Below are positions 44,393-64,000 of a DNA stretch of 64,000 nucleotides, piece by piece (the first letter of the stretch is position 1; each line of letters begins with the position of its first letter). The stretch is taken from contig NZ_CP108414.1 of NCBI RefSeq assembly GCF_035978755.1, positions 7,316,001 to 7,380,000 of the forward strand, written 5' to 3'. The translations under genes and the position numbers were made by a program. The notes below the pieces were generated by a model. The model worked only from the letters and a program-made list of their open reading frames with translations. It ran no database searches and had not been told where the DNA came from. This stretch comes from Streptomyces sp. NBC_01298. Lineage in GTDB: Bacteria; Actinomycetota; Actinomycetes; Streptomycetales; Streptomycetaceae.

Positions 44393-45217
44393 GTGAGCAG
44401 AAAGATTCTGGTCATTGTCTCCGAACACGGTTACTGGGCCGAGGAACTGATCGGCCCCGTATCGCAGTTCGACGAGCAAGGCTATGAAGTCGTATTCGCC
44501 ACGCCGACCGGAAAGCGTGCCCACGCTCTCCCGCCGAGCCTCGACGCGAACTACATCGATCCTCCGCTGGGACGCTCGGTCACCACCGAGGAGAACGCCC
44601 GGCTGGGCCGGGAGTTCGAGCAGTCGAGCCGGCTCGACTCCCCCCTCGACATCGAGGCCTTGGCCCCCGAGCGCCCGTACACGAGCGACTCGGCCTATCT
44701 GCCCAAGCTCGAGCAGTACCACCGCGATCTGGACAAGCTCCAGGCCGACATCGCCGGCTTCGACGCGGTGCTCATCGTGGGAGGCAGCGGTCCGATCGTC
44801 GACCTCGCCAACAACGAGCGCGTGCACGCCCTGATCCTCGCCTTCAAGAACGCGGGCAAGGTCGTCGCCGCCGAGTGCTACGGCGTCGCCTGCCTGGCCT
44901 TCGCCCGGGACTGGGGCGACCGGCGCAGCATCATCTGGGGCAAGCACGTGACCGGCCACTGCAAGGAGTACGACTACAAGGACGGCACCGGATTCCTCGG
45001 TACCGATTTCAACATGGGGCCGCCGCCGTATCCGCTGGAGTACATCCTGCGCGATGCGACCGGGCCGCGCGGCGCGTACATCGGGAATTTCGGCCACCCC
45101 CTTTCGGTGATCGTCGACTTCCCCTTCGTGACCGGTCGTTCGACCCCCGACTCATATCTCACGGGGCAGAAGATCGTGGAAGTCCTGGAGAACGGTCTCA
45201 CTCGGTACGGCTGGTAA
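44393..45217 (+). CDS. DJ-1/PfpI family protein with ECYG nucleophile elbow (cluster gene 1)
   Basis: A 274-residue class-I-amidotransferase-fold protein related to Hsp31/HchA deglycase-glyoxalase enzymes. It has ILVIVSEHGYWAEELIGP, a strand LIVGGSGPIVDL and a nucleophile elbow AECYGVACLAF, with Cys162 followed by Tyr where most members have His. Long insertions (DYKDGTGFLGTDFNMGPPPY) distinguish it from small DJ-1 proteins. GTG at 44393 has GGAGGA 4 bp upstream; a longer reading from 44249 would translate the operator-like repeats. It begins the long co-directional run. Carbonyl-stress chemistry is likely; the exact reaction is unknown. Confidence 0.85.
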   Translation: MSRKILVIVSEHGYWAEELIGPVSQFDEQGYEVVFATPTGKRAHALPPSLDANYIDPPLGRSVTTEENARLGREFEQSSRLDSPLDIEALAPERPYTSDSAYLPKLEQYHRDLDKLQADIAGFDAVLIVGGSGPIVDLANNERVHALILAFKNAGKVVAAECYGVACLAFARDWGDRRSIIWGKHVTGHCKEYDYKDGTGFLGTDFNMGPPPYPLEYILRDATGPRGAYIGNFGHPLSVIVDFPFVTGRSTPDSYLTGQKIVEVLENGLTRYGW

Positions 45218-45270
45218 TTCCGGTAACTCCGGCAATCCGGAACGACGGTACGCAAAGGAGGGGGAGTTCG

Positions 45271-46926
45271 ATGAGTTCTGGAGCCACTCCCGGACGGGAA
45301 AGGCTGATCGACCAGTTCAAGGCCGACGGCCTGAACGTCATGTTCGGAAATCCGGGGACGGTGGAACAGGGATTCCTCGACGCGGTCGACGCGGCGGAGG
45401 ACTTCCACTACGTCCTCGCCCTCCAGGAGACGGTGGCCGCCGGCATCGCCGACGGCTACGCCCGGGCCACCGGCGGGGCGGCCCTGCTCCAGCTCCACTC
45501 CGGGGTGGGGCTGGGCAACGGCATCGGCATGCTCTACCAGTCGCTGCGGGGCCACACCCCGCTCGTCGTGGTCGCCGGCGACGCCGGGGTGCGCTACGAC
45601 GCCATGGACGCGCAGATGGCGTCCGATCTGGTGGCGATGGCGAAGCCGGTGACCAAGTACGCGACCCGGGTCACCGACCGGCACTCCGTGCTCCGCACGA
45701 TCCGCCGCGCGGTGAAGATCGCCCTGACCCCGCCGCGCGGCCCGGTGTTCGTGGCGCTGCCGATGGACGTGCTGGACGAGCTCAACTCCGAGCTCGTCCT
45801 GCCCGCCGCGGTGCCGCTCACGGACGTGGCGCCCTCGCCCGCCTCGGTGGGGCGGGCGGCGGAGCTGCTGGCCTCCGCCGAGCGGCCGGTCGTCCTCGTC
45901 GGGGACGGGGTCGCGCTCTCCGGGGCGCAGCGCGAGCTCGTCGCCGTCGCCGAGCTGCTCGGCGCCGACGTGTACGAGGTCGACTCCTCCGAGGTGAACA
46001 TCGCGGCCTCGCACCCGCTGCGCCGCGGTCAGACGGGCCACATGTTCGGCCCGCACAGCAAGGAGCTGATCGGTCGGGCGGACGGGGTGCTGATCGTCGG
46101 CACCTACGTCTTCCCCGAGGTGTTCCCGGAACTGGAGAGCCCCTTCCGGGCCGGCGCGCGGGTCGTGCACATCGACCTGAACGCCTACGAGATCGCCAAG
46201 AACCACCCGGTGGACCTCGGGCTCGCCGCCGATCCCCGGCAGGCGCTGCGCGCGCTGGCCGGCGTACTGGAACACGTGCTCACCCCCGCGCAGCGGGCGG
46301 CGGCGGCCGGGAGGCTGGACGCGCGGACCCGGGAGCGGGTGCGCACGGACCAGACCGAGCGGGAGGCCAAGGAGGCGGACGGTTCGCCGATGGCGGTCTT
46401 CCTGCGGACCCTGGCCGAGCGCACCGGCGGGGACCTGATCGTCTTCGACGAGGCGCTGACCACCTCTCCGCTGGTCACCCGGTACCTGCCGCCGGAGCGG
46501 CCGGGCGACTACCACCTCACCCGGGGCGGATCGCTGGGCGTGGGCTTCCCGGGCGCGGTCGGCGTCAAGCTGGCCCGGCCGGAGCGGACCGTCGTCGGCT
46601 TCGCGGGCGACGGCGGCTCGATGTACACCTACCAGGCGCTGTGGACCGCGGCCCGGCACGGCATCGAGGCGAAGTTCGTGGTCTGCAACAACCGCAAGTA
46701 CCGGCTGCTGGACGACAACATCGCCCAGTACTGGCGGGAGCGGGAGATTGCGCAGCACGGCTTCCCGGGCTCCTTCGACCTCTCGCACCCCGAGATCGAC
46801 TTCGCCGCCCTGGCCCGGTCGCTCGGGGCGGGCGGGATGCGGGTGGAGAAGCCCGACGAGGCGATCGCCGCCGTGGGCCGGATGCTCGCCCATCCCGGGC
46901 CGTTCCTGGTCGACATACAGATCTGA
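45271..46926 (+). CDS. ThDP-dependent 2-oxoacid decarboxylase, benzoylformate decarboxylase-like (cluster gene 2)
   Basis: A 551-residue three-domain ThDP enzyme. Its N-terminal domain follows benzoylformate decarboxylase closely (VMFGNPGTVEQGFLDAV, ThDP-activating Glu53 in ALQETVAAGIADGYA, His76 in LQLHSGVGLGNG). The C-terminal domain has GDGGSMYTYQALWTAA, with Asp447, and NNRKYRLL. The NPGT motif replaces the NPGS serine that contacts substrate in the Pseudomonas enzyme, and the His281 region (GTYVFPEVF) lacks the His. A 2-oxoacid decarboxylase or lyase acting on a different substrate is likely, giving an aldehyde for the downstream oxidoreductases. It has a very strong AAAGGAGGGGG ribosome-binding site. 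Confidence 0.87.
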   Translation: MSSGATPGRERLIDQFKADGLNVMFGNPGTVEQGFLDAVDAAEDFHYVLALQETVAAGIADGYARATGGAALLQLHSGVGLGNGIGMLYQSLRGHTPLVVVAGDAGVRYDAMDAQMASDLVAMAKPVTKYATRVTDRHSVLRTIRRAVKIALTPPRGPVFVALPMDVLDELNSELVLPAAVPLTDVAPSPASVGRAAELLASAERPVVLVGDGVALSGAQRELVAVAELLGADVYEVDSSEVNIAASHPLRRGQTGHMFGPHSKELIGRADGVLIVGTYVFPEVFPELESPFRAGARVVHIDLNAYEIAKNHPVDLGLAADPRQALRALAGVLEHVLTPAQRAAAAGRLDARTRERVRTDQTEREAKEADGSPMAVFLRTLAERTGGDLIVFDEALTTSPLVTRYLPPERPGDYHLTRGGSLGVGFPGAVGVKLARPERTVVGFAGDGGSMYTYQALWTAARHGIEAKFVVCNNRKYRLLDDNIAQYWREREIAQHGFPGSFDLSHPEIDFAALARSLGAGGMRVEKPDEAIAAVGRMLAHPGPFLVDIQI

Positions 46927-46985
46927 CACCGCCGGATCTGACGCACGGACCCCACGCAGAGCACGGACAGACAGGAGGAGACCGC

Positions 46986-47417
46986 ATGCCCGCCGAGCGG
47001 CTGACCGAGGACGCGATCCGCGCCTTCGCCGAGAAGTGGTACGTGGCCCTGGACCAGCACGTCCAGCCGGACCAGGTGCTGGCCCTGATCACCGAGGACC
47101 TGGAGTTCAAGGTCCCGGAGGACACCTTCGTCGGCCACCAGGGCTTCGGCCGCTGGTACGAGGCGGTCACGAACCGCTTCTTCGACGAGGTGCACACGGT
47201 CACCAAGGTGGAGCCCGTCATCGAGGGGGACCGGGCGATCGTCCGGGTCCTCGTCAACTGGCAGGCCAAGATCTGGGACCCGCCGGCCGCCCGCAGCGTG
47301 TGGCTGGGCTTCGACGCCGACCAGACCTGGACCGTGGTCGCCGGCCCCGACGGGCCGCTGATCCGGCAGTACACCGTCAACGACCTGGCGCCCATGCCCG
47401 GCTCCGCCTCCCTCTGA
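46986..47417 (+). CDS. SnoaL/NTF2-like protein 1 (cluster gene 3)
   Basis: A 143-residue cone-barrel protein: an N-terminal helix (EDAIRAFAEKWYVALDQH), then DLEFKVPEDTFVGHQGFGRWYEAV and RAIVRVLVNWQAKIWDPP. The fold is used by cyclases, isomerases, hydratases and non-catalytic ligand binders. Here a DLEFKVPE acidic pair and His56-like residue in VGHQGF line the expected pocket. An AGGAGG ribosome-binding site precedes the ATG. It is the first of three consecutive, mutually diverged SnoaL-like genes. Confidence 0.82.
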   Translation: MPAERLTEDAIRAFAEKWYVALDQHVQPDQVLALITEDLEFKVPEDTFVGHQGFGRWYEAVTNRFFDEVHTVTKVEPVIEGDRAIVRVLVNWQAKIWDPPAARSVWLGFDADQTWTVVAGPDGPLIRQYTVNDLAPMPGSASL

Positions 47418-47449
47418 GCGCCGGACTGATCGCCGAAGGAGAAGCGACG

Positions 47450-47905
47450 ATGACCGAAGTGACACGGGAGCGGGTCGAGGCGGCGTACCGCGCCCTCGGC
47501 TCCGGCGACCGGGCCAGGATCCTGGAGTACTACGCGGAGGACCTGCGCTGGCAGGTCCCCGGCAACCATCCGCTCGCGGGCTGGTACGAGAGCCTGGACG
47601 CCTTCCTGGAGCTGATGGGCCAGACCCACAAGCTCACGGGCGGCACCTTCCGCATGGACATCGAGGCCGTCCTCGTCGGCGAGGACTGCAGCGCGGACGT
47701 CTGCCGCAACGTCGCCGTGCGCGGCGGTGCCGACGAGTCGAGCGGGTCCCCGTACGAGCGGATGGACTACCCGGTCTTCCACTTCATGCGCTGGCGGGGC
47801 GGCCGCATCGTCGAGGGCCACGACGGGCTCTTCGGCGACACGGCCACCGCCTTCAGCCAGTTCTGGGCGCCCTTCGCGCCCGACGGAACCCGCAGGGACC
47901 AGTAG
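47450..47905 (+). CDS. SnoaL/NTF2-like protein 2 (cluster gene 4)
   Basis: A 151-residue member of the same fold: VEAAYRALGSGDRARILEYYAEDLRWQVPG, then LAGWYESLDAFLELM and MRWRGGRIVEGHDGLFGDTATAF. The ending RIVEGHDGLFGD resembles the C-terminal strand of polyketide-cyclase-like SnoaL proteins. It shares little identity with its two neighbours beyond the fold, so this is not a recent tandem duplication. A GAAGGAGAAG ribosome-binding site precedes the ATG. Substrate unknown. Confidence 0.82.
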   Translation: MTEVTRERVEAAYRALGSGDRARILEYYAEDLRWQVPGNHPLAGWYESLDAFLELMGQTHKLTGGTFRMDIEAVLVGEDCSADVCRNVAVRGGADESSGSPYERMDYPVFHFMRWRGGRIVEGHDGLFGDTATAFSQFWAPFAPDGTRRDQ

Positions 47906-47918
47906 GGGGTTGAGCGCC

Positions 47919-48290
47919 ATGGACGCGCGGCAGATCTTGCAGAAGTACTACGAGTACGCCAACGCCGGTGACTGGGACAGCTGGTGCGACCTGTTCGCCG
48001 AGGACCAGGTCATGGACGAGCAGCTCGCCGGCCACATCGAGGGCCTGGACACGCTGCGGTCGATGATGAAGGGCATGGGGACCATGTACCGGGTCTTCCG
48101 CAACGAGCCCGTGCACTTCCTCGTCGACGGGGAGAAGGCCGCGGCCGTCTCCCACCTGACCGCGGTCACCCCCTCCGGGGACGGGATCGAGGCCGAGGTC
48201 ATGAACTTCTTCCGGATCGTGGACGGAAAGATCGCCTACATGGCGAACTACCACGACACGGTTCCCTTCCAGGTCCTCGGCCAGGGCTGA
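47919..48290 (+). CDS. SnoaL/NTF2-like protein 3 (cluster gene 5)
   Basis: A 123-residue nuclear-transport-factor-2-fold protein: ILQKYYEYANAGDWDSWCDLFAEDQVMDEQLAGHIEGLDTLRSMMKGM and VMNFFRIVDGKIAYMANYHDTVPF. This is the most canonical of the three, close to the general SnoaL-like clan. It sits 13 bp after gene 4 and 11 bp before the GMC oxidoreductase, so all are co-translated. It could isomerise or hydrate a product of the ThDP or GMC enzyme, but that is inference. Confidence 0.84.
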   Translation: MDARQILQKYYEYANAGDWDSWCDLFAEDQVMDEQLAGHIEGLDTLRSMMKGMGTMYRVFRNEPVHFLVDGEKAAAVSHLTAVTPSGDGIEAEVMNFFRIVDGKIAYMANYHDTVPFQVLGQG

Positions 48291-48301
48291 GGGGGCGCGC
48301 G

Positions 48302-49906
48302 ATGGCCGTGGATGAGTACGACTACATCGTCGTGGGATCCGGCACCGCCGGCAGCGTCCTCGCGAACCGCCTCTCCGAGGACCCGGACGTCACCGTCCTG
48401 GTCCTGGAGGCGGGGGCGGGCCGCATCCCTCCCGAGGTGGACGATCCGTCCTCCTGGTACAAGCTGCTCGGCGGGCCCGTCGACTGGGGTTACACCAGCG
48501 TCCCGCAGCCCGGCCTGGACGGCCGCCGCACCTACGAACCGCGCGGCAAGGCCCCCGGCGGCAGCAGCAACCTCTACATCATGATGCACATCCGGGGCCA
48601 CGCCTCGGACTTCGACAACTGGGCCTACCAGGGCGCGGCGGGCTGGGCCCACGAGGACGTACTGCCCTACTTCTCGCTGCTGGAGGGCCAGGAGGACGCC
48701 ACCGCGCCCACCACCGGCACCCGCGGGCCGCAGCGGATCACCCACGCCGGGCGGCACGGCCCCAACCCGGTCTCCCGGGCCTTCATCGACGCCGCGGTCG
48801 AGCTCGGTCACGAGGAGATCGCCGACTTCAACACCGACGGGCCGCGGCGCGGACTCTTCGGCACCGGCTGGCACCACATCGACGTGGCCGACGGCCGCCG
48901 CCAGGGCGTCCTCGCCGCCTACCTGGAGCCGGCGCTGGACCGCTCGAACCTGACCCTGCGCACCAGTGCGCAGAGCACCCGGCTGCTCTTCGACGGGGAC
49001 ACCTGCACGGGTGTGGAGTACGTCCAGCTCCAGGCCCCCGCCCAGATTCCCGGGCGGACGGTGCGGGACGGGCACAGCACGGCGTCCGAGCCCGGGCTGC
49101 ACACCGTACGGGCCCGCCGAGAGGTGATCGTGGCCGCCGGGGCGATCGAATCGCCGAAGCTGCTGCTGCTCTCCGGGATCGGGCACCCCGAGCAGCTGCG
49201 CGAGCACGGCATCGGGACCGTCGCCGCCCTGCCCGGGGTCGGCGAGAACTTCCACAACCACGTACTGACCGGGCTGATGGCCGAGGTCACCCAGGAACTG
49301 CCGCCGCCCGCACAGAACTTGTCGGAGAGCGCGCTGTTCCTCTCGTCCCGGCCCGGGCTGCCGGCGCCGGACCTGCAGATCGCCTTCGTCCACGTGCCGT
49401 TCGACGTGATCGTCGGCCAGGACCACCCGAACACGGTGTCCATCCTGCCCGGCGTCGTCCGGCCCGTCTCGCGGGGCTGGATCAAGCTGGCGAGTGCCGA
49501 TCCGCTGGCCCACCCGCTGATCAACCCGAACTACCTGGGCGACCGCTGGGACCTGGAGCGGATGGTCCAGGGCGTCAAGACCGCCCGGGAGCTCTTCGCG
49601 ACCTCCGCCTTCTCGCCCTGGTACAAGCAGGAGCTCCAGCCCGGACCCGGCTACGTGTCCGACGAGGACCTGCGCACCTTCGTGAAGCAGAAGTCGGAGA
49701 GCTACCACCACCAGGCCGGCTCCTGCCGGATGGGCATCGACGACCTCTCCGTCGTCGACCCGGAACTGCGGGTGCACGGCGTACGGAACCTGCGCGTCGT
49801 CGACGCGAGCGTGATGCCCGCCGTCCCGTCGGGCAACTGCCACACCGCCATCGCGATGATCGCCGAGCGCGCGGCGGACTTCCTGAAGGGAGTGTCCCGT
49901 GCCTGA
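48302..49906 (+). CDS. GMC-family FAD oxidoreductase (cluster gene 6)
   Basis: A 534-residue glucose-methanol-choline family flavoprotein oxidising an alcohol to an aldehyde or ketone. FAD binding: DYIVVGSGTAGSVLANRL (residues 7-24) and LVLEAGAG. The GMC signature GKAPGGSSNLYIMMHIRGHASDFDNW and second signature AAGAIESPKLLLLSGIG are present. The catalytic His pair appears in SYHHQAGSCRMG and PSGNCHTAIAMIAER. It is related to choline-dehydrogenase-like GMC proteins; the substrate is not identifiable. The downstream aldehyde dehydrogenase and molybdenum hydroxylase could oxidise its product. Confidence 0.92.
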   Translation: MAVDEYDYIVVGSGTAGSVLANRLSEDPDVTVLVLEAGAGRIPPEVDDPSSWYKLLGGPVDWGYTSVPQPGLDGRRTYEPRGKAPGGSSNLYIMMHIRGHASDFDNWAYQGAAGWAHEDVLPYFSLLEGQEDATAPTTGTRGPQRITHAGRHGPNPVSRAFIDAAVELGHEEIADFNTDGPRRGLFGTGWHHIDVADGRRQGVLAAYLEPALDRSNLTLRTSAQSTRLLFDGDTCTGVEYVQLQAPAQIPGRTVRDGHSTASEPGLHTVRARREVIVAAGAIESPKLLLLSGIGHPEQLREHGIGTVAALPGVGENFHNHVLTGLMAEVTQELPPPAQNLSESALFLSSRPGLPAPDLQIAFVHVPFDVIVGQDHPNTVSILPGVVRPVSRGWIKLASADPLAHPLINPNYLGDRWDLERMVQGVKTARELFATSAFSPWYKQELQPGPGYVSDEDLRTFVKQKSESYHHQAGSCRMGIDDLSVVDPELRVHGVRNLRVVDASVMPAVPSGNCHTAIAMIAERAADFLKGVSRA

Positions 49907-50555
49907 TGTGGTCCTGCGCGAGGGCGCGCTGACCGGAACCCGGATCGCGGTCCTGGTCGAGAGCGACTTCTACGAGCCGGAGATCTTCTACTACGGCCAC
50001 CGGTTCGCGGAGGAGGGCGCCGAGGTCGACTTCCTGACCCGGCTGTGGGGCAACGACTCCATCACCTTCTCCGGGCACGAGTACCGGGCGCCGTTCACCG
50101 CCACCCAGTCCCTGGAGGGGCTGAGCGACGAGGACCTGCGGCGCTACTCGGCGATCATCGTGCCCTCGGGCATGGTGGCCGACCGGCTGCGCTACACCGA
50201 GGACGTGGACGTACTGGCCCCGGCGACGGAGCTGCTGCGCCGGGCCTTCGAGGAGCCGACGGTCCTCAAGGGGATCATCTGCCACGGCATGTGGCTGGCC
50301 GCCTCGATCCCGGACAAGGTGCGCGGCCGCAAGGTCGTCTGCCACAACAACCTCATCGGCGACGTCCGGAACATGGGCGGCGAGTACGTGGACGAGGACG
50401 TGGTCGTCGACGGCGACCTGGTCACCGGCCGCACCGGGGCCCACCACCACCTGTTCGCCCGCCGGATCATCGAGCTGATCGCCGCCGACCGGGGCGCGCG
50501 GGGCGCTCGGGGAGCGGGAGCGGGGAGCGTACCGGGCGCGCGGGGCACCGCCTGA
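49899..50555 (+). CDS. DJ-1/PfpI family protein (cluster gene 7)
   Basis: A 218-residue PfpI-like protein: the Glu in VLVESDFYEPEIFYYGHRFAEEGAEV, IIVPSGMVADRLRY and nucleophile Cys128 in GIICHGMWLAAS, the canonical Cys-His elbow. The C-terminal 25 residues (GARGARGAGAGS) are Gly/Ala/Arg-rich. The GTG start overlaps the GMC stop by 8 bp, and its TGA shares one base with the next ATG. Members act as proteases, deglycases or glyoxal hydratases. The second of three DJ-1 paralogues here. Confidence 0.87.
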   Translation: MPDVVLREGALTGTRIAVLVESDFYEPEIFYYGHRFAEEGAEVDFLTRLWGNDSITFSGHEYRAPFTATQSLEGLSDEDLRRYSAIIVPSGMVADRLRYTEDVDVLAPATELLRRAFEEPTVLKGIICHGMWLAASIPDKVRGRKVVCHNNLIGDVRNMGGEYVDEDVVVDGDLVTGRTGAHHHLFARRIIELIAADRGARGARGAGAGSVPGARGTA

Positions 50556-50989
50556 TGGCCCCGATGGTCTGGTCGCACGTGGGCCTGAACTGCGCCGACC
50601 AGAAGACCACCGAGGAGTTCTACACCCGGTACTTCGGCTTCGCCCGGGCCCGGGTGGTCGACCTCGGAGACGCACAGATCATCTTCCTCCGCCAGGGGGA
50701 CGTGTACCTGGAGCTCTTCGCGGCCGGCACCGAGCCGGGCGACACGGCACAGCACGACGGGCCGGCGGCGCCGGGCCGGATGCGTCACCTGGCCTTCCAG
50801 ACCGACAGCGTGGACGGCTTCCTGGCCACGCTCGGCGACGCGGCCGAAGTGACCCTGGGGCCACTGGACTTCGACGACTTCATCTGCGGGTGGCGGACCG
50901 TGTGGGTCCGCGATCCCGACGGGGTGATCGTCGAGGTCAGCCAGGGATTCGAGGACGAACACGGTCAACACGACAAGGACGGTGCATGA
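50555..50989 (+). CDS. Glyoxalase/VOC-fold metalloprotein (cluster gene 8)
   Basis: A 144-residue vicinal-oxygen-chelate protein with paired beta-alpha-beta modules. The four canonical metal positions are present: His8 (WSHVGLNC), Glu53 (YLELF), His78 (MRHLAFQTD) and Glu127 (IVEVSQG), the His-Glu-His-Glu set of glyoxalase I. FYTRYFGFARARVVDLGD and DPDGVIVE are typical. It could be a glyoxalase, dioxygenase or isomerase; the ligand set favours glyoxalase-I-like chemistry. The ATG overlaps the DJ-1 stop (TGATG). Confidence 0.87.
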   Translation: MAPMVWSHVGLNCADQKTTEEFYTRYFGFARARVVDLGDAQIIFLRQGDVYLELFAAGTEPGDTAQHDGPAAPGRMRHLAFQTDSVDGFLATLGDAAEVTLGPLDFDDFICGWRTVWVRDPDGVIVEVSQGFEDEHGQHDKDGA

Positions 50990-52847: not shown

Positions 52848-53188
52848 ATGACCCTGAACGTGAAGGAACGCCGCAACAAAGCGGGAACCGTGCTCGTCGC
52901 CATCGGCGAGATCAACAGCGAGACCTCCGGAGCGCTGCTGCAGACGCTGCTGCCGCTGGTCCGCGAGGGCAGGCCGCTGCGCATCGACCTGACGGCCGTC
53001 ACCTACGTCTCCAGCGCCGGGCTGCGCACCCTGCTCGTCGTCTACCGCGAGGCCCAGCACGCCGGGGTCGCCGTCACCCTCTACGGGGTGAGCGAGGAAG
53101 TCCGGTTCGTCATGTCGGCCACCGGCTTCCTCGACTTCTTCTCCACCGGAGAGGCCGCCGCGGCGGCCTCCAAGGCCAAGGCCGTCCG

Positions 53189-53192: not shown

Positions 53193-55324
<2,132 letters not shown>

Positions 55325-55384: not shown

Positions 55385-55696
55385 ATGCCGCTTTCCGTGT
55401 CCCTGAGCATCGAGGGCGACACCACCGTGATCGAGCTCGAGGGCGAACTCGACGCCAAGACCGCGCCGGACTTCCACCAGACCATAGAGAAGGCCGCCGG
55501 CCACGGCACCAGCACCGTCGAGATCCGCATGGCCGGCGTCGGCTACATGGCCAGCGCCGGACTGCGCTCCCTGGTCTTCGCCCAGCAGAAGGTGGGGGAG
55601 CACGTCACCATCAAGGTGGTCGGCGCCATCGAGCCCGTCGCCCGGACCATCCGGACGGCCGGGCTCGACCGCAGCATCGTGCTCTCCGACGACTGA
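55385..55696 (+). CDS. STAS-domain anti-sigma-factor-antagonist-like protein 2 (cluster gene 12)
   Basis: A 103-residue RsbV/SpoIIAA-like STAS domain: VIELEGELDAKTAPDFHQTIEKAA and the phospho-acceptor loop GYMASAGLRSLVFAQQK with Ser57 the candidate site. It is distinct from the first STAS protein, so the two are likely different clients of the same kinase or phosphatase. A GAAGGAG ribosome-binding site precedes the ATG, and the HATPase gene starts 5 bp after the stop. Confidence 0.93.
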   Translation: MPLSVSLSIEGDTTVIELEGELDAKTAPDFHQTIEKAAGHGTSTVEIRMAGVGYMASAGLRSLVFAQQKVGEHVTIKVVGAIEPVARTIRTAGLDRSIVLSDD

Positions 55697-55701: not shown

Positions 55702-56166
55702 ATGGACGAGGCGGTCAAGACGGCGAGGACGTCCGCCGAACTGGAAGTGCCGGCCACCCTGGCGGCACTGGGCGACATCGCCGCGCTCGTCCTGCGGCTG
55801 GCCGGGAGCGCGGGCCTGGGCAAGGGTGCCGCGTACCGGATCCGGCTGGCCGTGGACGAGCTGGCCACCAACATCGTGATGCACGGGTACCGGGGCGGCG
55901 ACGGACGGATCACCGTCCGGGGCCGCTCCGGGCCGGGCCGGGTACGGATCTCCATCGAGGACCGAGCCCCGGCCTTCGACCCGGTCCAGGGGCGACTGCC
56001 GCCCGAACCGCACACCGCTCCCGAGCGGCGCCGGATCGGCGGACTCGGCATCCACCTCGCACTGACCAGCGTGGACGAGTTCGACTACGTACGCAGGGAC
56101 GGCCGCAACATCAGCACGCTGACTGTGATGGCTGAGGGGACGGACCCATGCCCTCCACGACCGTGA
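55702..56166 (+). CDS. HATPase anti-sigma-factor-type serine kinase, SpoIIAB/RsbW-like (cluster gene 13)
   Basis: A 154-residue GHKL-fold kinase. The N-box is VDELATNIVMHGYRGG, with Glu53 and Asn57. The G1 box is IEDRAPAFDPVQGR, and the G2-like GGLGIHLALTSVDEF follows. It is expected to phosphorylate one or both STAS proteins and to bind a target when they are phosphorylated. No sigma factor gene is nearby, so the target may be one elsewhere or a metabolic protein. Its 3' end overlaps the phosphatase gene by 19 bp, indicating coupled synthesis. Confidence 0.93.
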   Translation: MDEAVKTARTSAELEVPATLAALGDIAALVLRLAGSAGLGKGAAYRIRLAVDELATNIVMHGYRGGDGRITVRGRSGPGRVRISIEDRAPAFDPVQGRLPPEPHTAPERRRIGGLGIHLALTSVDEFDYVRRDGRNISTLTVMAEGTDPCPPRP

Positions 56167-57407
56167 TCATCCTCGACGAGTACCCGCCGCCTCCCCTCGA
56201 ACTCCTCGGAGCACTGGAGGAGATGGGGGCGGCACTCGTCCCGCGCACGCTGGCCGAACTACTGGCCGGCCCACTGGAGGAGCTGCCCGAAGCGGACGTA
56301 CTGCTCGCCCCGGCCCAGGCCGACGGGGACTCCGTACGGACCGCCGTGCGCCGGCTGCGCCGCTGGGCCGGAGCCCCCATCGTCGTCGTGTGGACCGTGA
56401 CGGAGTTCGCCGCGCTGGAGGCGCACGTCCGGATCGGGCACGACTACCTCGTACCCCCCTTCCTGCCCGCCCTCGTCGGGGCCCGGCTGCACAGCTGCTC
56501 GGAGCGCGCCGGACTCGGGCGCACCCTGCGCGAAGCCGACGCCCGCGCCGAACTCATGGGCTACGAAAAGGAGTTGGAGATCGGCCGGGAGATCCAGGCC
56601 GGCTTCCTGCCGGAATCGCTGCCGGTCCCCGAGGGCTGGGAGATCGACGTGTGCTTCCGGCCCGCCCGGCAGGTCGCCGGGGACTTCTACGACGTCTTCG
56701 AACTCTCCCGCGGCAGACGCCTGGCCTTCGTCGTCGCCGACGTCTGCGACAAGGGGGTCGGCGCCGCGCTCTTCATGGCGCTCATCCGCTCCCTGCTGCG
56801 GCACACCGCCGAGAACAGCGGCCTCCAGCACCTGGTGGCCGCCGGCCGCACCGGCAACAGCCGGCGCATACCCGTGGTCGGCGCCACCCCGCTGCTCAAC
56901 GCGGTCACCGCCACCAACGGCTACCTGACCCGCAACCACCTGCGGCAGGGCTACTTCGCCACCCTCTTCTTCGGGGTGCTCGACCCGCTCACCGGATCCC
57001 TCGTCTACATCAACGGCGGCCACAACCCGCCGCTGCTGCTGGACGCGGACGGTGGCGAGCCCCGCACGCTGGAGGTCACCGGCCCCGCCGTCGGGGTGCT
57101 CCCGGACTGTGTGTACACGCTCGGCTACGCCCAGTTGAACCCCGGTGACACGCTCTTCGTGTTCACCGACGGAGTGCCCGAGGCGCGCTGCCCCAGCGGC
57201 AGCTTCCTCGGCGACGAGCGGATGCTGCAGCTGCTGTCCGGCCCCCCGGTCAGCGGCAGGGAGGTGGTTCACCGGATGGACACGGCCGTACGCGAACACA
57301 CCGGAACAGCCGAACAGCACGACGACGTCACCATGCTGGCCCTGCACCGGCCACGCGCGGCGCGGGGGCCGCACGCGGGCGGGGCCGATCGCCAGGTCGT
57401 GGCCTGA
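56148..57407 (+). CDS. SpoIIE/RsbU-type PP2C phosphatase with degenerate receiver-like N-terminus (cluster gene 14)
   Basis: A 419-residue serine phosphatase. Residues about 1-120 look like a receiver fold without the phospho-Asp (TVIILDEYPPPPLELLGAL, ADVLLAPAQADG, APIVVVWTVTEF). A coiled linker (RTLREADARAELMGYEKELEIGREIQ) leads to the PP2C domain: RQVAGDFYDVFELS, ADVCDKGVGAALFMA, INGGHNPPLLL, FVFTDGVPEA and QHDDVTMLAL supply the Mn-binding acids. An insertion (TAENSGLQHLVAAGRTGNSRR) is present. It should dephosphorylate the STAS proteins and so reverse the kinase. What its N-terminus senses is unknown. Confidence 0.93.
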   Translation: MPSTTVIILDEYPPPPLELLGALEEMGAALVPRTLAELLAGPLEELPEADVLLAPAQADGDSVRTAVRRLRRWAGAPIVVVWTVTEFAALEAHVRIGHDYLVPPFLPALVGARLHSCSERAGLGRTLREADARAELMGYEKELEIGREIQAGFLPESLPVPEGWEIDVCFRPARQVAGDFYDVFELSRGRRLAFVVADVCDKGVGAALFMALIRSLLRHTAENSGLQHLVAAGRTGNSRRIPVVGATPLLNAVTATNGYLTRNHLRQGYFATLFFGVLDPLTGSLVYINGGHNPPLLLDADGGEPRTLEVTGPAVGVLPDCVYTLGYAQLNPGDTLFVFTDGVPEARCPSGSFLGDERMLQLLSGPPVSGREVVHRMDTAVREHTGTAEQHDDVTMLALHRPRAARGPHAGGADRQVVA

Positions 57408-58159
57408 TGACCCGGACCATCGTGGTGCACTCGTACCGCGGCGGTACCGGAAAGTCCTCGGTGCTGGCGAACCTGGCCCTGCTCCTGGCGGCCGAGGGAC
57501 GCCGGGTGGGGGTGATCGACACGGACATCCAGTCGCCCACCCTGGACCTGCTCTTCCGGCTCCGCCCCGGCCCGTCACTGGCCGACTACCTGCTCGGCCG
57601 GTGCGAGATCGAGGCCGCCGCCCAGGAGGTCACCACGAGCTGCGGCCGCGGTCTGTACGTCGTACCGGCGCGGACCGGGACGGCGGCCTTACGAGAACTC
57701 ATGACCACCGGCTACGACGTGGGGCTGCTGCCCGAGGGCTTCGACCGGCTGGCCGTGCACCACGCCCTGGACGTCCTGCTGCTCGACACCCACGCCGGAC
57801 TCAACAACGAGTCGGTCACCGCGATGGCCAGCGCCGACGTCCTGCTGATCATGGCCCGGGCCGACCGGATCGACCTCCTCGGCGTCGAGGAGACCATCGC
57901 CCTGACCGGCCGGCTCGCCTGCCGGCGGACCCTGGTGATGAGCATGGCGCCCGAGGGCATCGACCGGGAGGCCGCAAGGCGGCGGGCCGAGGAGGTCTAC
58001 CGCACGCCCCTGGCCGGAATCCTTCCCTACGTTCCGGAAATGGCGGCCCTCTACGGGGAACGCATATTTTCCGAAGCCCATCCCGACCACCCCCTGGTCG
58101 GTGAATTCCGCACCATCATCTCGGCGTTGGACGCACGTGACGAAGTATCGCGTGCCTGA
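57407..58159 (+). CDS. ParA/MinD-like ATPase (cluster gene 15)
   Basis: A 250-residue SIMIBI-class ATPase with a deviant Walker A, YRGGTGKSS (Lys16), the switch I region IDTDIQSPTLDLL, and a Walker B strand VLLLDTHAG. Members position proteins, plasmids or organelle-like bodies, or load metal cofactors. It has no obvious membrane-targeting C-terminal helix (IISALDARDEVSRA is the end). The ATG shares one base with the phosphatase stop, so it belongs to the switch module. It may localise a complex or respond to the switch. A hairpin 12 bp downstream may partly separate it from the following genes. Confidence 0.9.
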   Translation: MTRTIVVHSYRGGTGKSSVLANLALLLAAEGRRVGVIDTDIQSPTLDLLFRLRPGPSLADYLLGRCEIEAAAQEVTTSCGRGLYVVPARTGTAALRELMTTGYDVGLLPEGFDRLAVHHALDVLLLDTHAGLNNESVTAMASADVLLIMARADRIDLLGVEETIALTGRLACRRTLVMSMAPEGIDREAARRRAEEVYRTPLAGILPYVPEMAALYGERIFSEAHPDHPLVGEFRTIISALDARDEVSRA

Positions 58160-58238: not shown

Positions 58239-58979
58239 ATGAAGATTCTCGTCGTCATGACGGCCAAGGCCACGCTTCATCTGCTGGACGGGGAACAACA
58301 CCCCTCGGGCTTCTGGGCCGAGGAATTCGCCGTTCCCTACACCCTCTTCAAGAACGCGGGCCACACCGTGGACGTGGCGACGATCGCGGGCGAGACCCCG
58401 ACGGTCGACGCGACCAGCATCGACCCCCAGTTCCTCCAGTGGGTCCGCCCCCAGGGCTCCGCCGACACGGACACGGCCAGCGCCGCGGAGTACACCCGCG
58501 TCATAGAGAACTCCCCGCAGCTGAGAAACCCGATCGCCCTGGAGACCCTGGGCGAGAAGGACATCGCCGACTACGACGGCATCTACATCAGCGGCGGCCA
58601 CGGGGCCATCGGGGACCTGCCCAAGTCCGACGAGCTCGCCCAGATCCTGCGCTGGGCCATCGCCCAGGACAAGCCCCTGGCCACGGTCTGCCACGGGCAC
58701 ACCGCCCTGCTGGCCCTGCGCGACGGCGAGGGCCAGTGGCCCTTCGCGGGCTACCGGATGACCGCCTTCTCGCACAGCGAAGAGCTCGTCACCAACATGG
58801 CCGGCCGCCTCCCGCTGATCCTGGAGGCCGAACTCACCCGGCTCGGCGCCCGCTACGAGAAGGCCGACGCGATCTGGGACTCGCACGTGGTGGTGGACCG
58901 CAAGCTCACCACCGGCCAGAACCCCTACTCCTCCAAGGCCCTCGCGGAGACGTTCTTAACCCAGCTCGCGCGGGGCTAG
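58239..58979 (+). CDS. DJ-1/Hsp31-like glyoxalase III/deglycase family protein (cluster gene 16)
   Basis: A 246-residue protein closest to HchA-type (glutathione-independent) glyoxalases: HPSGFWAEEFAVPYTLFKNAGHTVDVATI with the catalytic Glu, DYDGIYISGGHGAIGDL and nucleophile Cys151 in ATVCHGHTALLAL. FSHSEELVTNMAGRLPLILEAELTRLG is typical of the family. HchA enzymes convert methylglyoxal to lactate. An AGAGGAGAAG ribosome-binding site precedes the ATG. It is the third DJ-1 protein here and the most canonical, making carbonyl-stress chemistry the best guess for the cluster. Confidence 0.9.
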   Translation: MKILVVMTAKATLHLLDGEQHPSGFWAEEFAVPYTLFKNAGHTVDVATIAGETPTVDATSIDPQFLQWVRPQGSADTDTASAAEYTRVIENSPQLRNPIALETLGEKDIADYDGIYISGGHGAIGDLPKSDELAQILRWAIAQDKPLATVCHGHTALLALRDGEGQWPFAGYRMTAFSHSEELVTNMAGRLPLILEAELTRLGARYEKADAIWDSHVVVDRKLTTGQNPYSSKALAETFLTQLARG

Positions 58980-59027: not shown

Positions 59028-60512
59028 ATGACCCAGCGCGCGCTCAGCGACCAGCCCTTGGCCAACCCCGGGAAACTGTTCATCGGCGGCACCTGGGTCG
59101 AGGCCCGGGACGGCCGCACCGAACCGGACATCAGCCCCGTGGACGGCCAGGAGATCGTGCCGGTGGCCCAGGCCGCCGCCGCCGACGCGGACGCGGCGGT
59201 GGCCGCCGCCCGCACGGCGTACGAGGAAGGTCCCTGGAGCAGACTGTCCGCCCAGGAACGCGCGCTGCGGCTGAACCGGGTCGGGGAGCTCATCGAGCGC
59301 GACCTGGAGGAGATCGCCCTGCTGGAGACGGTGGACATGGGCAAGCCGTTCGCCTTCTCCTCCACGGTCGACGCCCCCATGGCCGCCCAGCTCATGCACT
59401 ACTACGCCGGCGCCGTGACCCGGGTGGACGGCTCCTCCCGGGCCCCGGCCGGCGGGCAGCTCGCGTACACCCTGCGCGAACCGCTGGGCGTGGTCTGCGC
59501 CATCACCCCCTTCAACTTCCCGCTGCTCCTGTCGATGACGAAGATCGCCCCGGCGCTCGCGGCCGGGAACACCGTGGTCCACAAGCCCTCGCCCGCCACC
59601 CCGCTCACCGCCCTGAAGATCGCCGAGCTGTTCCAGGAGGCGGAGATTCCGGACGGAGTGCTGAACGTCATCACCGGTCCGGGCGTGGAACTGGGCGAGA
59701 CCCTCACCGGCCACCCCGGCATCGACAAGATCGCCTTCACCGGGTCCACCTCCGTGGGCCAGTCGATCATCCGCAAGGCGGCCGGCACCCTGAAGAAGGT
59801 GACGATGGAGCTCGGCGGCAAGTCCGCCAACATCGTCTTCGCCGACGCCGACCTCGACGCCGCCGAGGAACTCGCCTTCTTCGGCATCTACTACAACAAG
59901 GGCGAGATCTGCACCGCCGGCTCCCGGCTGCTGCTGCACCGCCCGATCCACGACGAGATGGTCGAACGGTTCGTGGCCCGCGCGGCCGCCCTGCTGCCCG
60001 GAGACCCGCGCGACCCGGCCACCCTCTTCGGGCCGCTCGCCCACCGCGGCCAGTTCGACAAGGTCAGCTCGTACATCGAGGTCGGCGAGAAGGAAGGCGC
60101 GGTCCTGCGCGTCGGCGGCACCGGCTGGACCCCCGAAGGGGCCTCCTCCGACGGCCTGTACTTCCTGCCGACCATCTTCACCGGCGTCGACAACTCCATG
60201 CGGATCGCCCAGGAGGAGATCTTCGGACCCGTCCTGTCGATCATCCCCTTCGACACCGAGGAGGACGCCGTGCGCATCGCCAACGACAGCGCGTACGGCC
60301 TCGCCGCCGGGGTCCACACCAAGGACCTGCGGCGCGCCCACCGGGTCGCCTCGCAGATCAAGGCCGGCACGGTCTGGGTCAATTGCTACAACCAGTACGA
60401 CCCCTCCGTGCCCTACGGCGGCTACAAGGCCTCCGGCTACGGGCGCGAGTGCGGCCCCGAGTCGCTGGAGAGCTACACCCAGACCAAGTCGGTCTGGATC
60501 GGAATGGACTGA
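59028..60512 (+). CDS. NAD(P)-dependent aldehyde dehydrogenase (cluster gene 17)
   Basis: A 494-residue ALDH-superfamily protein oxidising an aldehyde to a carboxylic acid. Catalytic Cys295 lies in KGEICTAGSR and the general base Glu261 in MELGGKSA. Cofactor binding is shown by ITPFNFPLLLS, HKPSPATPLTALKI and FTGSTSVGQ, and EEIFGPVLSIIPF near residues 400-412. It resembles betaine-aldehyde and aromatic-aldehyde dehydrogenases, but the substrate cannot be read from sequence. It could act on the product of the ThDP or GMC enzyme. Confidence 0.95.
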   Translation: MTQRALSDQPLANPGKLFIGGTWVEARDGRTEPDISPVDGQEIVPVAQAAAADADAAVAAARTAYEEGPWSRLSAQERALRLNRVGELIERDLEEIALLETVDMGKPFAFSSTVDAPMAAQLMHYYAGAVTRVDGSSRAPAGGQLAYTLREPLGVVCAITPFNFPLLLSMTKIAPALAAGNTVVHKPSPATPLTALKIAELFQEAEIPDGVLNVITGPGVELGETLTGHPGIDKIAFTGSTSVGQSIIRKAAGTLKKVTMELGGKSANIVFADADLDAAEELAFFGIYYNKGEICTAGSRLLLHRPIHDEMVERFVARAAALLPGDPRDPATLFGPLAHRGQFDKVSSYIEVGEKEGAVLRVGGTGWTPEGASSDGLYFLPTIFTGVDNSMRIAQEEIFGPVLSIIPFDTEEDAVRIANDSAYGLAAGVHTKDLRRAHRVASQIKAGTVWVNCYNQYDPSVPYGGYKASGYGRECGPESLESYTQTKSVWIGMD

Positions 60513-60584: not shown

Positions 60585-61199
60585 ATGCGGATCGGCATCA
60601 TCGGAACGGGCCGGATCGGATCGACCCTGGCCAGGATCCTCGTGGCGGCGGACCATCAGGTCGTGCTCGCCAACGCCCGGGGCCCGCGGAGCCTCGCGGA
60701 CCTGCTGGCCGAACTGGGCCCCGCGGCCTCGGCGGCGCACCCCGCCGAGGTCGCGGACCGGTCCGAAGTCCTCGTCCTGATGGTGCCGTTCGACAGCGTC
60801 CAGGGGCTGCTGCCCCAGGAAGCCGTACGGGACACCGTGCTGGTGGACGCCACCAACGCCTTCGACGGCCCGGGCAACGCTCGCAACCTCGGCGGCAGGG
60901 GATCCAGCGAGTTCGTCGCCGAATGGTATCCGGGGACCCGGATCGTGAAATCCCTGAACACCATGCATTTCGAGACGCTCGCCGTCGCCGGCACCGCGCC
61001 GGGCCCGCGTCTGGCCCATTTCACGGCGGGCGACGACGGGAAAGCCAAAGAAATAGTCGCGGGAATCATCACGGATCTCGGATTCGCTCCCGTGGACACC
61101 GGCCCGCTGCACTCCGGAGGAATTCTCCAGCAGCCCGGCGGGCCCCTCTTCAACCGGCCGCTCACGGAAGCGCAGGCGCTGGCATGGACCTCTCACTGA
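60585..61199 (+). CDS. F420-dependent NADP reductase-like / NPD family oxidoreductase (cluster gene 18)
   Basis: A 204-residue single-domain Rossmann protein: RIGIIGTGRIGSTLARILVAADHQV at the N-terminus, VVLANARGPRSL as the NADP-phosphate-binding loop, VVLMVPFDS-like and IVKSLNTMHFETLA. This is the fold of coenzyme-F420-dependent NADP reductases and related ketopantoate-reductase-like proteins. A hydride link to F420H2 or NADPH is therefore likely; the partner substrate is unknown. Its 3' end overlaps the molybdenum-hydroxylase small subunit gene by 16 bp, implying functional coupling. Confidence 0.85.
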   Translation: MRIGIIGTGRIGSTLARILVAADHQVVLANARGPRSLADLLAELGPAASAAHPAEVADRSEVLVLMVPFDSVQGLLPQEAVRDTVLVDATNAFDGPGNARNLGGRGSSEFVAEWYPGTRIVKSLNTMHFETLAVAGTAPGPRLAHFTAGDDGKAKEIVAGIITDLGFAPVDTGPLHSGGILQQPGGPLFNRPLTEAQALAWTSH

Positions 61200-61723
61200 A
61201 CGTCAACGGAAGACCCGAGCAGTTCTCGGCGCAGCCGAACGAACTGCTCGTGGAACGGCTCCGGGACGGCCTCGGGCTGACCGGCACCAAGGTCGGCTGC
61301 GACACCGGCCAGTGCGGAACCTGCGTCGTCCGGCTCGACGGCCGCTCCGTCAAGAGCTGCCTGATCCTCACCGCGGCGGCCGCCGGCTCCGCGGTGACCA
61401 CCATCGAGGGGGTCACCACCCCCGGCGGTGAACTCACCGGCCTCCAGGAGGCCCTGCGCGAGGAACACGGCACCCAGTGCGGCTTCTGCACCCCCGGGAT
61501 GGTCATGGCCCTGGGTGAGCTCGTGGAGAACACCGAGCACCGCGAGCCGCCCACCGAGCCCGAGATCCGCGAATGGCTCACCGGCAACCTGTGCCGCTGC
61601 ACGGGCTACCACAGCGTCGTACGGGGAGTGCAGCGCGCCTGCTCCGCGGCCCGCGCGCAGGTGCCCGTGGAGCAGGGCACCGCGCAGCCGGCCACCGCCG
61701 CCGCGTCCGGACAGGAGGGGTGA
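61184..61723 (+). CDS. [2Fe-2S] small subunit of a molybdenum hydroxylase (cluster gene 19)
   Basis: A 179-residue CoxS/xanthine-dehydrogenase-type iron-sulfur subunit carrying two [2Fe-2S] clusters. The plant-type ferredoxin motif is GCDTGQCGTCVVRLDG with a fourth Cys in KSCLIL. The second cluster motif is CGFCTPGM with LTGNLCRCTGY. The Ala/Gln-rich C-terminal 25 residues are extra. Start ATG 61184 lies within the previous gene. It supplies electron transfer for the large subunit encoded 5 bp downstream. Confidence 0.94.
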   Translation: MDLSLNVNGRPEQFSAQPNELLVERLRDGLGLTGTKVGCDTGQCGTCVVRLDGRSVKSCLILTAAAAGSAVTTIEGVTTPGGELTGLQEALREEHGTQCGFCTPGMVMALGELVENTEHREPPTEPEIREWLTGNLCRCTGYHSVVRGVQRACSAARAQVPVEQGTAQPATAAASGQEG

Positions 61724-61728
61724 GGGAG

Positions 61729-64000
61729 ATGACCGCAGTCACGGGGGAGACCCCGCTCCAGGCGCCGATCCAGGGCAACGGCCTGCTCGGACAGCCGCTG
61801 GACAGCCGCGAGGACCCGCAGCTCCTGCGCGGAGAAGCCACGTACGTCGGGGACATCGACCTGCCGGGCACCGCCCACATGGCGATCCTCGGCAGCCCCG
61901 TGGCCCACGCGAAGGTCCTCTCCATCGACACCAAGGCCGCCGAGCAGCTGCCGGGCGTACTGAAGGTGGCCACCGCGGCCGACTTCACCGACGTCATGCC
62001 GCTGCCCTGCATCTGGATACCCGGCGGGGTCGAGAGCCACTTCCCGCCCCACCCCTACGGGCTTCCCGGCTCCCGCCCGGTGCTCTCCGGCGACACCGTG
62101 CGCCACGTCGGCGACCCCGTCGCCGTGGTCGTCGCCGAGACCCCGCGCCAGGCCGCCGCCGCGCTCGCGGCCATCTCCGTCGAGTACGAGCCGCTGCCCG
62201 TGGTGACCCGCGCCGACGAGGCCCTCGCCGAAGGCGCCCCCCAGCTCCACGAGGCCGTCCCCGGCAACCTGAACGCGTACTGGACCTGCGGCGACAAGGA
62301 CCGCACCGACGCGGCCATCGCCGCGGCCGAGGTCACCGTCGAGCTGGACCTCGTCAACCAGCGGACGATCAACAGCCCCATCGAGCCGCGCGGCGCGGTC
62401 GGCGACTACAACACCGCCACCGGCGAGTACACGCTGTACGCCTCCACCCAGGGCCCGCACAACCACCGCTTCCTGCTCTCCGCGCTGGTCCTCGGCATCC
62501 CCTTCAACAAGCTCCGGGTCGTCGCCCCGACCGTCGGCGGCAGCTTCGGCACCAAGGGATACCTGTACCCCGACATGCCGCTGGTCCTGCTGCTCTCCAA
62601 GGCGCTCGGCCGGCCCGTGAAATGGGTCGACACCCGCACCGGGCTGATGAACTCCACCGTCCAGGGCCGCGACCACCGCCAGCACGTCACCCTGGCCGGC
62701 ACCCGCGACGGCCGGATCACGGCCGTGCGCTGCACCAGCTACGCCAACCTCGGGGCCTACCCCTCGACCATCGGCCCCGGTGTCGCCACCGCCCTGATGG
62801 GCCGTTCCATCAGCGGCATGTACGACATCGACGCCGCCTTCTGCGAGGTCTACGCCGCCTTCACCAACACCGTCTCGCTCGGCGCCCAGCGCGGCAGCGG
62901 GCGGGCCGAGGCCGCGTTCCTGATGGAGCGGCTCGTGGACCGCTACGCCTCCGAGATCGGCATGGACCCGGCGGCGGTGCGCCGCCGGAACCTGGTGCCG
63001 AAAGAGAAGTTCCCGTACGACAACGGCCTCGGCTGGACCTACGACTCGGGCGACTACCAGCTCAACTTCGACCGGGCCATCGAACTCTCGGGCTACGCCG
63101 ACATGCCCGCCCGCAAGACCGAGGCCCGCACCCGCGGCAAGCGGCTCGGCGTCGGCATCGCCTCCTACGTGGCGATCTGCGGGGTCGGCCCCTCCACCCG
63201 GATGTCCAAGGAGGGCATGCTCGGCGGCACGTGGGAGAGCGCGAACATCCGCGTCCACCCCACCGGCGAGGTCACCGTCACCGTGGGCTCCGCCTCCACC
63301 GGCCAGAGCCACGGCACCGTCTTCGCGCAGGTCGCCGCCGACGAGCTCGGCATCGACCCGGCGACGGTCAATGTGTACGAGGGGGACACCCTCAAGGCCC
63401 CGTACGGGCAGGGCACTTACGGTTCGCGCTCCTACAGCATGGCCGCGCCGGCCATCGCCCTCACGGCCCGGAAGATCAAGAGCAAGCTGGTCAAGGCCGG
63501 CGCCGTCTTCCTCGGCGTCCCCGAGGACAAGGTCGTCTACGCGGACGGCAAGGTCTTCGAAGAGGGGCACGAAGACGACCCCGAGAAGAGCAAGACCTTC
63601 GCCGAGCTGGCCATGGCCATGTGGTACGGCTGGGGACTGCCGCCCGAGATCGAGCCCGCACTCGACGAGACCACCCACTTCGACCCGCCGGACTTCAACT
63701 ACCCCTTCGGGACGCACGTGGCGGTCGTCGAGATCGACGAACTGACCGGCGAGACCGAGGTGGTGGCCTACACCGCCGTCGACGACGCCGGGAACATCGG
63801 CAACCCGAAGATCGTGCTCGGCCAGATCGAGGGCAGCATCCTGCACGGCCTCGGCCAGGCCCTCATGGAGCACGCCGAGTACGACCCGGACGGGCGGCTC
63901 GTCAGCCGGGACCTGAACCACTACGCCCTGCCGCGCGCCATCGACGCGCCCTTCTTCACCCTCGACAAGACCACCACGCCCTCCCCGCACAACCCGCTGG
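61729..64000 (+). CDS. Molybdopterin large subunit of a molybdenum hydroxylase, form II-like (cluster gene 20, 3' end outside window)
   Basis: The first 757 or so residues of a xanthine-dehydrogenase/CO-dehydrogenase-type large subunit. Domain one has [21 protein letters not shown]. The molybdopterin domain has [34 protein letters not shown] and [16 protein letters not shown]. At the position of the form I CO-dehydrogenase loop (AYxCSFR) it reads [12 protein letters not shown], which lacks the catalytic Cys, so it should act as an aldehyde or heterocycle hydroxylase, not a true CO dehydrogenase. No FAD (CoxM) subunit is seen before the window edge; it could lie downstream. Confidence 0.92.

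Follow-up and report, generated by a model that had tools for sequence, protein, structure and literature searches.

Organization of the gene block

We analyzed a 64,000-nucleotide stretch of the Streptomyces sp. NBC_01298 genome (contig NZ_CP108414.1, positions 7,316,001 to 7,380,000; here called the window, whose numbering is used throughout), in which a run of 20 genes occupies the plus strand from position 44393 to the window end. Comparison with other genomes relates this block to the icfG operon of Synechocystis and suggests that its phosphorylation switch may act on the sugar enzymes encoded within it. Genes were called with a codon-usage script, and families were assigned with Pfam and NCBIfam profiles and their cut-offs. 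Intergenic spacing in the run ranges from -19 to 79 bp, in agreement with the original prediction of 20 co-directional genes with no gap above 80 bp; its count of at least seven start/stop overlaps shrinks to 5 true overlaps plus two 1-bp gaps with the start codons used here. All of the families that it had named, including those of the embedded STAS/STAS/HATPase/SpoIIE/ParA partner switch, are backed by Pfam and NCBIfam profiles.

The first gene encodes DJ-1a (ThiJ/PfpI-like; 44393 to 45217), which scores above the PF17124 and PF01965 cut-offs and has a conserved Cys (23/23). It is followed by genes for a thiamine diphosphate (ThDP) enzyme (45271 to 46926), three SnoaL-like proteins (a, 46986 to 47417; b, 47450 to 47905; c, 47919 to 48290), a GMC oxidoreductase (48302 to 49906), DJ-1b (PfpI-like; 49908 to 50555), and a VOC protein (50555 to 50989). 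Next come an AGE-type sugar epimerase/isomerase-like enzyme (AGE; 50991 to 52811), the anti-anti-sigma-like protein STAS1 (52848 to 53192), GlgX (53189 to 55324; its start is overlapped by the end of STAS1 by 4 bp), STAS2 (55385 to 55696), an RsbW/SpoIIAB-like kinase (HATPase_c_2; 55702 to 56166), a SpoIIE phosphatase (56148 to 57407), and a ParA/MinD-like ATPase (57407 to 58159). The tail starts with DJ-1c (HchA-like; 58239 to 58979) and continues with an aldehyde dehydrogenase (ALDH; 59028 to 60512), an F420/NADP oxidoreductase-like Rossmann protein (F420_oxidored, here F420-like; 60585 to 61199), and the [2Fe-2S] (CoxS-like; 61184 to 61723) and large (CoxL-like; 61729 to 64000, with its true end outside the window at 64155) subunits of a molybdenum hydroxylase. 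Past the window, CoxM, MFS, cyclic nucleotide monophosphate-binding histidine kinase, SnoaL, TMEM175, DDE_5, and XdhC genes extend the run to 71596 and to a total of 27 genes; a gap of 137 bp lies ahead of the MFS gene, and an IMPDH-family gene comes after XdhC, downstream of 71596. The order of the tail is identical in 5/5 related Streptomyces genomes fetched. Between 44100 and 64000, four terminator-like sites were detected, each on the minus strand, and a scan for sigma-70-type promoters gave no match.

Conservation of the block

Loci were chosen by AGE protein similarity alone; their neighbors were no criterion. The 88 loci comprise the best 80 of at least 549 confirmed relatives on genome contigs and 8 of the 20 plasmid records matched, and near relatives are over-represented because only the best 80 were kept. 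They form 37 clusters at 85% AGE identity, and for 72 of them (31 clusters) the sequence reaches about 9 kb or more to either side (i.e., full-flank loci). The neighbor counts cover these 88 loci, with L112 to L132 left out.

AGE, STAS, and GlgX genes are consecutive in 76/88 loci (30/37 clusters), and STAS1 overlaps or touches glgX in 59 of these 76. The block, which the original prediction had taken to be a unit, is thus no chance juxtaposition. On the same strand of the 72 full-flank loci, we found GlgX in 71 (30 of the 31 clusters), STAS1 in 63 (25), STAS2 in 62 (26), DJ-1b in 62 (25), and the kinase and the SpoIIE phosphatase in 58 (23) each. DJ-1a and ThDP genes occur in 51 (19) each, ParA in 48 (12), GMC in 38 (15), VOC in 36 (12), and SnoaL a, b, and c in 34 (12), 25 (3), and 34 (11), respectively. 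When gene fusions are counted, a STAS domain is found in 71/72 and DJ-1b in 65/72 full-flank loci. The conserved core therefore consists of DJ-1b, AGE, STAS1, GlgX, STAS2, the kinase, and the SpoIIE phosphatase, often with ParA; a recurrent enzyme set (i.e., DJ-1a, ThDP, SnoaL, GMC, and VOC) lies beside it, together with a lineage-specific oxidation tail. AGE is linked most strongly to GlgX, DJ-1b, and STAS domains. AGE distances correlate with those of all 11 families tested (r = 0.35 to 0.87; P ≤ 0.002), a relationship that shared ancestry alone could also produce.

The last five window genes (DJ-1c, ALDH, F420-like, CoxS, and CoxL) were each found on the same strand in 23 full-flank loci, which belong to 1 or 2 of the 31 clusters, and on either strand in 2 to 4 of the 37 clusters. 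Outside the window's own cluster, DJ-1c occurs at L036, L041, L054, and L077, and the other tail genes occur at L077 (CoxS and CoxL), L089 (ALDH), and L076 (F420-like), on either strand. The right flanks of 9 to 10 kb barely reach the position of CoxL, so that the tail can be called absent within this range alone. Within it, the five genes are almost confined to one lineage and lie outside the widely conserved system; the predicted single system of 20 genes stands for the core, which is kept together, and not for its last five members.

In a second Streptomyces-type arrangement (L004, L010, and L011; L037 to L056), maltosyltransferase, GlgB, TreS, or maltokinase genes, annotated in L004, L010, and L011 and elsewhere inferred from position, lie beside the core. 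This arrangement is in line with an alpha-glucan role.

Relationship to the icfG operon

The Synechocystis salina locus (L088) has the order DJ-1b, AGE, STAS, GlgX, STAS, SpoIIE, kinase, and its proteins are 63% (AGE), 62% (GlgX), 34% (STAS1), 42% (STAS2), 40% (kinase), and 33% (SpoIIE) identical to those of the window. In the window, the AGE, STAS, GlgX, STAS, SpoIIE phosphatase, and RsbW-like kinase genes lie together on one strand. Compared via L088, the window and the icfG cluster of strain PCC 6803 (slr1852 to slr1862) share the order DJ-1b-like, AGE, STAS, GlgX, STAS, phosphatase, kinase, but the last two genes come in the opposite order in the window; the phosphatase has 419 amino acids in the window and 629 at L088. 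By position, STAS1, GlgX, and STAS2 are the counterparts of Slr1856, Slr1857, and Slr1859, and the kinase and the phosphatase correspond to Slr1861 and IcfG. The cluster is reportedly treated in Beuf 1994, Shi 1999, and Gonzalez 2001, as cited in PMC12329169, PMC8670252, and PMC11619594.

According to PMC8670252, the products of the operon slr1852 to slr1862 include an epimerase (Slr1855), an anti-sigma antagonist (Slr1856), GlgX1, and IcfG. Because this published content and the gene order and homology at L088 match, the comparison strongly supports membership of the window block in the icfG type, as an enlarged operon. The original prediction had called the locus undescribed, a description that does not apply to its core, since the arrangement AGE-STAS-GlgX-STAS-phosphatase/kinase is that of the Synechocystis icfG operon. 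The window goes beyond the icfG cluster in the DJ-1a, ThDP, three SnoaL, GMC, and VOC genes upstream and in ParA after the phosphatase plus the oxidoreductase tail. What is new relative to icfG is the 27-gene actinobacterial form, its occurrence in several phyla, the absence of a linked sigma gene, the upstream operator array, and the gene fusions. Among the papers listed in searches of openly accessible literature, none was found to describe an operon of this type outside cyanobacteria or an AGE-STAS fusion.

Sections of two articles on Synechocystis describe how the switch works there. Slr1861 phosphorylates Slr1856 and Slr1859, and IcfG dephosphorylates Slr1856 and not Slr1859 (PMC12329169); that the kinase phosphorylates both STAS proteins while the phosphatase acts on one is also given in PMC11619594. 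When inorganic carbon is low, growth on glucose suffers from the loss of Slr1859, while loss of Slr1856 has no such effect (PMC11619594). A link of the icfG operon to carbon control has been drawn since the 1990s, as cited in PMC12329169.

The partner switch

With its S/A-S-A-G-L-motif STAS proteins, HATPase kinase, and SpoIIE-type phosphatase, the window resembles the RsbU/RsbV/RsbW and SpoIIAA/AB/E switches. It differs from them by the presence of two STAS proteins, the lack of a linked sigma gene, the enzyme genes that lie between the switch genes, and the STAS-enzyme fusions of its relatives. The kinase ATP motifs, the STAS phosphosite, and the metal-site Asp of the phosphatase, which are the motifs that matter in such proteins, are kept in nearly all members (alignment columns).

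With twelve sigma-factor proteins of the same genome as queries, no linked sigma-factor gene was found among the genes of the 88 loci (0/1747). The genome itself carries 7 SigBFG-type genes above the cut-off, of which none is linked and the nearest lies >0.9 Mb from the block. It is possible that an unlinked sigma factor is a target, as proposed for Synechocystis. A search with a SigB-type promoter consensus gave no match upstream of the block in the window and 25 relatives, 3 of these sequences being cut short by a mis-called start.

The N-terminal part of the SpoIIE protein (56148 to 56550) has a receiver-like look, lacks the phospho-acceptor Asp, and has DYLVPPF at its end. Its probability against a receiver profile was 3.9, versus 11.3 for ParA as an unrelated control; this region may be a degenerate receiver. 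The ParA/MinD-like ATPase has the Walker A sequence RGGTGKS, and 13/15 members of its family carry Arg where the deviant Walker A motif has its signature Lys.

Gene fusions

Loci without a STAS gene between AGE and GlgX mostly have a longer AGE gene. At seven loci in three clusters (L007, L008, L071, L082, L083, L084, and L091), a STAS domain is fused to AGE on its C-terminal side; it matches STAS profiles with E values of 2.5e-17 to 2.6e-29 and exceeds the Pfam STAS cut-off in 6/7 cases. Within the locus sequence covered (12.7 kb in all for L071), none of the 7 loci has a separate STAS, kinase, or phosphatase gene. Kinase or phosphatase genes lie nearby in 62/66 full-flank loci without the AGE-STAS fusion versus 0/6 with it (3 clusters). 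When the L082 fusion was used as the query, 4593 database relatives were found; 116 of the best 120 have a precomputed STAS domain, and the STAS2 profile matches 119, the phosphosite being Ser or Thr in most of them; in such a ranking a fused query favors fusions at the top of the list.

DJ-1b is fused to the N-terminal side of AGE at L065, L076, and L089 and in the database protein P0120. Candidate joined kinase and phosphatase genes occur at L005, whose record annotates SpoIIE alone at the joined gene, and at L087, which has a separate kinase gene too. Together with the gene order, the fusions suggest that the enzyme is a target of the STAS proteins.

Enzymes of the block

The AGE protein belongs to the AGE superfamily by its PF07221 score (71.6 bits; gathering score, 23.4) and its (alpha/alpha)6-type barrel fold. 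Compared with the mannose isomerase, cellobiose 2-epimerase, and glucose 2-epimerase of this superfamily, it is 15 to 20% identical among the best matches listed and has about 100 extra N-terminal and 70 extra C-terminal residues, and its relatives carry STAS or DJ-1 fusions. Slr1855 is annotated as "N-acetylglucosamine 2-epimerase" in PMC8670252 and as "Unknown protein" in PMC8385029.

GlgX passes the NCBIfam TIGR02100 cut-off (689 versus 641 bits). Its GH13 D, E, and D columns, which we take to be catalytic, are conserved in 35 to 36 of 36 aligned sequences. In a midpoint-rooted FastTree phylogeny, read by its topology alone without support values, the GlgX proteins of STAS-bearing loci cluster together as a separate STAS-flanked subfamily and the two GlgX paralogues of the same genome fall outside it; those fusion-locus proteins that are in the tree (5 of the 7 AGE-STAS loci) fall into the other group. 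Among solved structures, plant chloroplast isoamylase 1 comes closest to the window GlgX by sequence, with 649 bits; bacterial and archaeal GlgX structures score 431 to 545 bits. A passage in a 2020 review describes the roles of the two Synechocystis GlgX isoforms as not determined (PMC7133116).

The three DJ-1 proteins all exceed Pfam gathering scores, and all fall below the NCBIfam glyoxalase/deglycase cut-offs. The ThDP enzyme is nearest to benzoylformate decarboxylase yet below the NCBIfam equivalog cut-off (308.6 versus 493 bits). Likewise, the GMC protein misses the cut-off for the MftG mycofactocin dehydrogenase (310.7 versus 387 bits), and CoxL, queried without the last 51 of its 808 residues, misses that for the aerobic CO dehydrogenase large subunit (568 versus 991 bits).

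An operator-like array upstream of the block

Three near-palindromic sites (consensus TACYTCAYGARGTC, ≤3 mismatches) lie 5' of the first gene at 44243, 44264, and 44297, with spacings of 21 and 33 bp; this operator-like array (44243 to 44310) has no assigned strand. It is present in 25/25 loci of this operon type (22 scored directly and 3 with mis-called starts scored separately), with at least three sites in 24 and two at L029. Loci of other operon types have three sites in 0/34 cases, and the locus-wide site rate, arrays included, is 0.22 per 451 bp. At L057, from another family (Sphaerisporangium melleum), three sites are spaced by 21 and 21 bp. Many of the 25 loci are close relatives and hence represent few independent events.

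Near-exact sites are not enriched genome-wide (15 versus 20 for a reversed-pattern control). We rejected a wider operator regulon: the genome has near-exact matches at 13 further places, of which 11 lie within called genes. No other three near-exact sites lie within 60 bp of each other in the genome; arrays of weaker sites were not sought. A further operator-like site (TACTTCCTGAGGTC, 1 mismatch; 68982 to 68995, with window numbering continued) lies at the 3' end of TMEM175, with 73 bp between it and the DDE_5 gene, and is kept in 5/5 relatives, in one with 2 mismatches; coding constraint may explain its conservation. An N-terminal extension of DJ-1a (a 322-amino-acid frame through the array) was set aside because of single-base gaps in some relatives and a ribosome-site-like GGAGG before 44393.

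Spread and probable transfer

AGE was found in 27/199 Streptomyces genomes (12 at ≥93% identity, 2 at 73 to 76%, and 13 at 57 to 62%), in 2/396 Actinomycetota genomes (the window's own included; a third, weak match was discounted), and in 18/244 genomes of the phylum of S. salina, that genome included. According to record titles and taxonomy lines, and to the usual phylum placement of some bins, the loci span Actinomycetota, Deinococcota, Chloroflexota, Cyanobacteriota, Bacteroidota, Alphaproteobacteria, and a Terrimicrobiaceae bin, and some lie on plasmids. Over the 19 genes that it shares with the window, L057 is 58 to 86% identical to it; each of the 10 genes that L057 has in common with two other Sphaerisporangium loci (L052 and L053) is closer to its window counterpart than to theirs. 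Either the block was transferred as a unit or its types separated long ago; the pattern fits both. Overall, the block is probably laterally moving. In one genome (G773, C1:1236289-1240388), the AGE gene is in two pieces about 2.3 kb apart and is possibly interrupted by an insert.

Flanking features

To the left of the block, a divergent pair (42065 to 44097) encodes a receiver plus thioredoxin-reductase-like flavoprotein and a UBP zinc finger; this flavoprotein family is present in 7/37 clusters. A reading frame with a barnase-type ribonuclease domain (PF00545; 39822 to 40052) lies between a ribulose-phosphate epimerase region and the block. The DDE_5 transposase-like gene (69069 to 70394; L092:6069-7394) also occurs at L004, L037 to L049, and other loci, and amounts to 28 copies in 12/37 clusters. 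It overlaps xdhC by 1 bp in the same genome and in 5/5 relatives, and for 12 of the 28 copies there is a 4-bp overlap with the next gene, which is annotated as maltokinase in L004; the gene looks domesticated rather than mobile.

A switch that may act on enzymes

We favor, with a probability of about 0.55, the reading that the block is an icfG-type operon whose phospho-switch may act on the AGE/GlgX enzymes themselves. The kinase would phosphorylate both STAS proteins and the SpoIIE phosphatase would reverse this, as reported for Slr1861 and IcfG. The phosphorylation state would set which partner the STAS proteins hold, and one such partner would be the AGE/GlgX enzyme pair. A stress or carbon signal could thereby tune alpha-glucan debranching and the isomerization or epimerization of the released reducing sugar, while the kinase may additionally hold an unlinked sigma factor. 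The DJ-1, ThDP, GMC, VOC, and ALDH/molybdenum hydroxylase proteins would process the products by oxidation. More tentatively, and with odds that we put below even, the output may be metabolic throughout, with STAS phosphorylation directly gating the epimerase/isomerase-GlgX pair, STAS having become a covalently attached regulatory domain in many cyanobacteria and in other scattered bacteria, and the sigma layer bypassed.

Several observations weigh against an action on the enzymes. Partial correlations do not separate STAS-enzyme from STAS-kinase coupling. AGE-STAS fusions represent just 3 clusters among the 88 loci, the fused domain is closer to STAS2 than to STAS1, though it is STAS1 that sits between AGE and GlgX, and the L007 domain is uncalled by Pfam itself. 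In the AGE relative 8h1k, the Gly-His-Asn motif is followed by a Glu, presumably a catalytic residue; here this position is Lys377, and Lys stands there in 38/38 members, so that the "epimerase" label is uncertain. Finally, a conventional output has been proposed in Synechocystis, where Slr1861 binds Ssr1600 and is a proposed anti-SigC (excerpt of PMC12329169).

This last proposal corresponds to an ordinary partner switch, in which the kinase would be an anti-sigma factor for a SigB-family factor, the STAS proteins its antagonists, and the enzymes regulon members in the same operon. The 7 unlinked SigBFG-type genes offer candidate partners, while the lack of a sigma gene at any of the 88 loci, the lack of a SigB-type promoter match in 26/26 upstream sequences (3 of them cut short), and the joining of STAS domains to the enzyme in some relatives make this alternative rather unlikely. 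The original prediction had instead proposed a locus, tuned by the switch, whose enzymes set free sugar-derived carbonyls and detoxify them. The grouping of three DJ-1 proteins, VOC, ALDH, and the molybdenum hydroxylase and the fusion of DJ-1b to AGE speak for such a carbonyl-stress operon; DJ-1c, ALDH, and the molybdenum hydroxylase are, however, absent within reach from nearly all other clusters, and the DJ-1 proteins miss the glyoxalase/deglycase cut-offs, so that we consider it unlikely. Least probable is a loose island of common stress-pool genes co-transferred without functional coupling: the sporadic spread of AGE and its occurrence on plasmids would fit, while gene order, overlaps, and fusions are conserved over phyla and GlgX is present in 71/72 full-flank loci.

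The core spans several phyla, is found on plasmids, lacks a sigma gene linked to it, and in some relatives joins STAS to the AGE enzyme; a regulatory puzzle thereby becomes accessible to direct tests of binding and enzyme activity in easily handled Streptomyces and Synechocystis strains. For the reading of the block as an icfG-type operon whose switch may act on its enzymes, the mechanism at the enzyme is the testable part.

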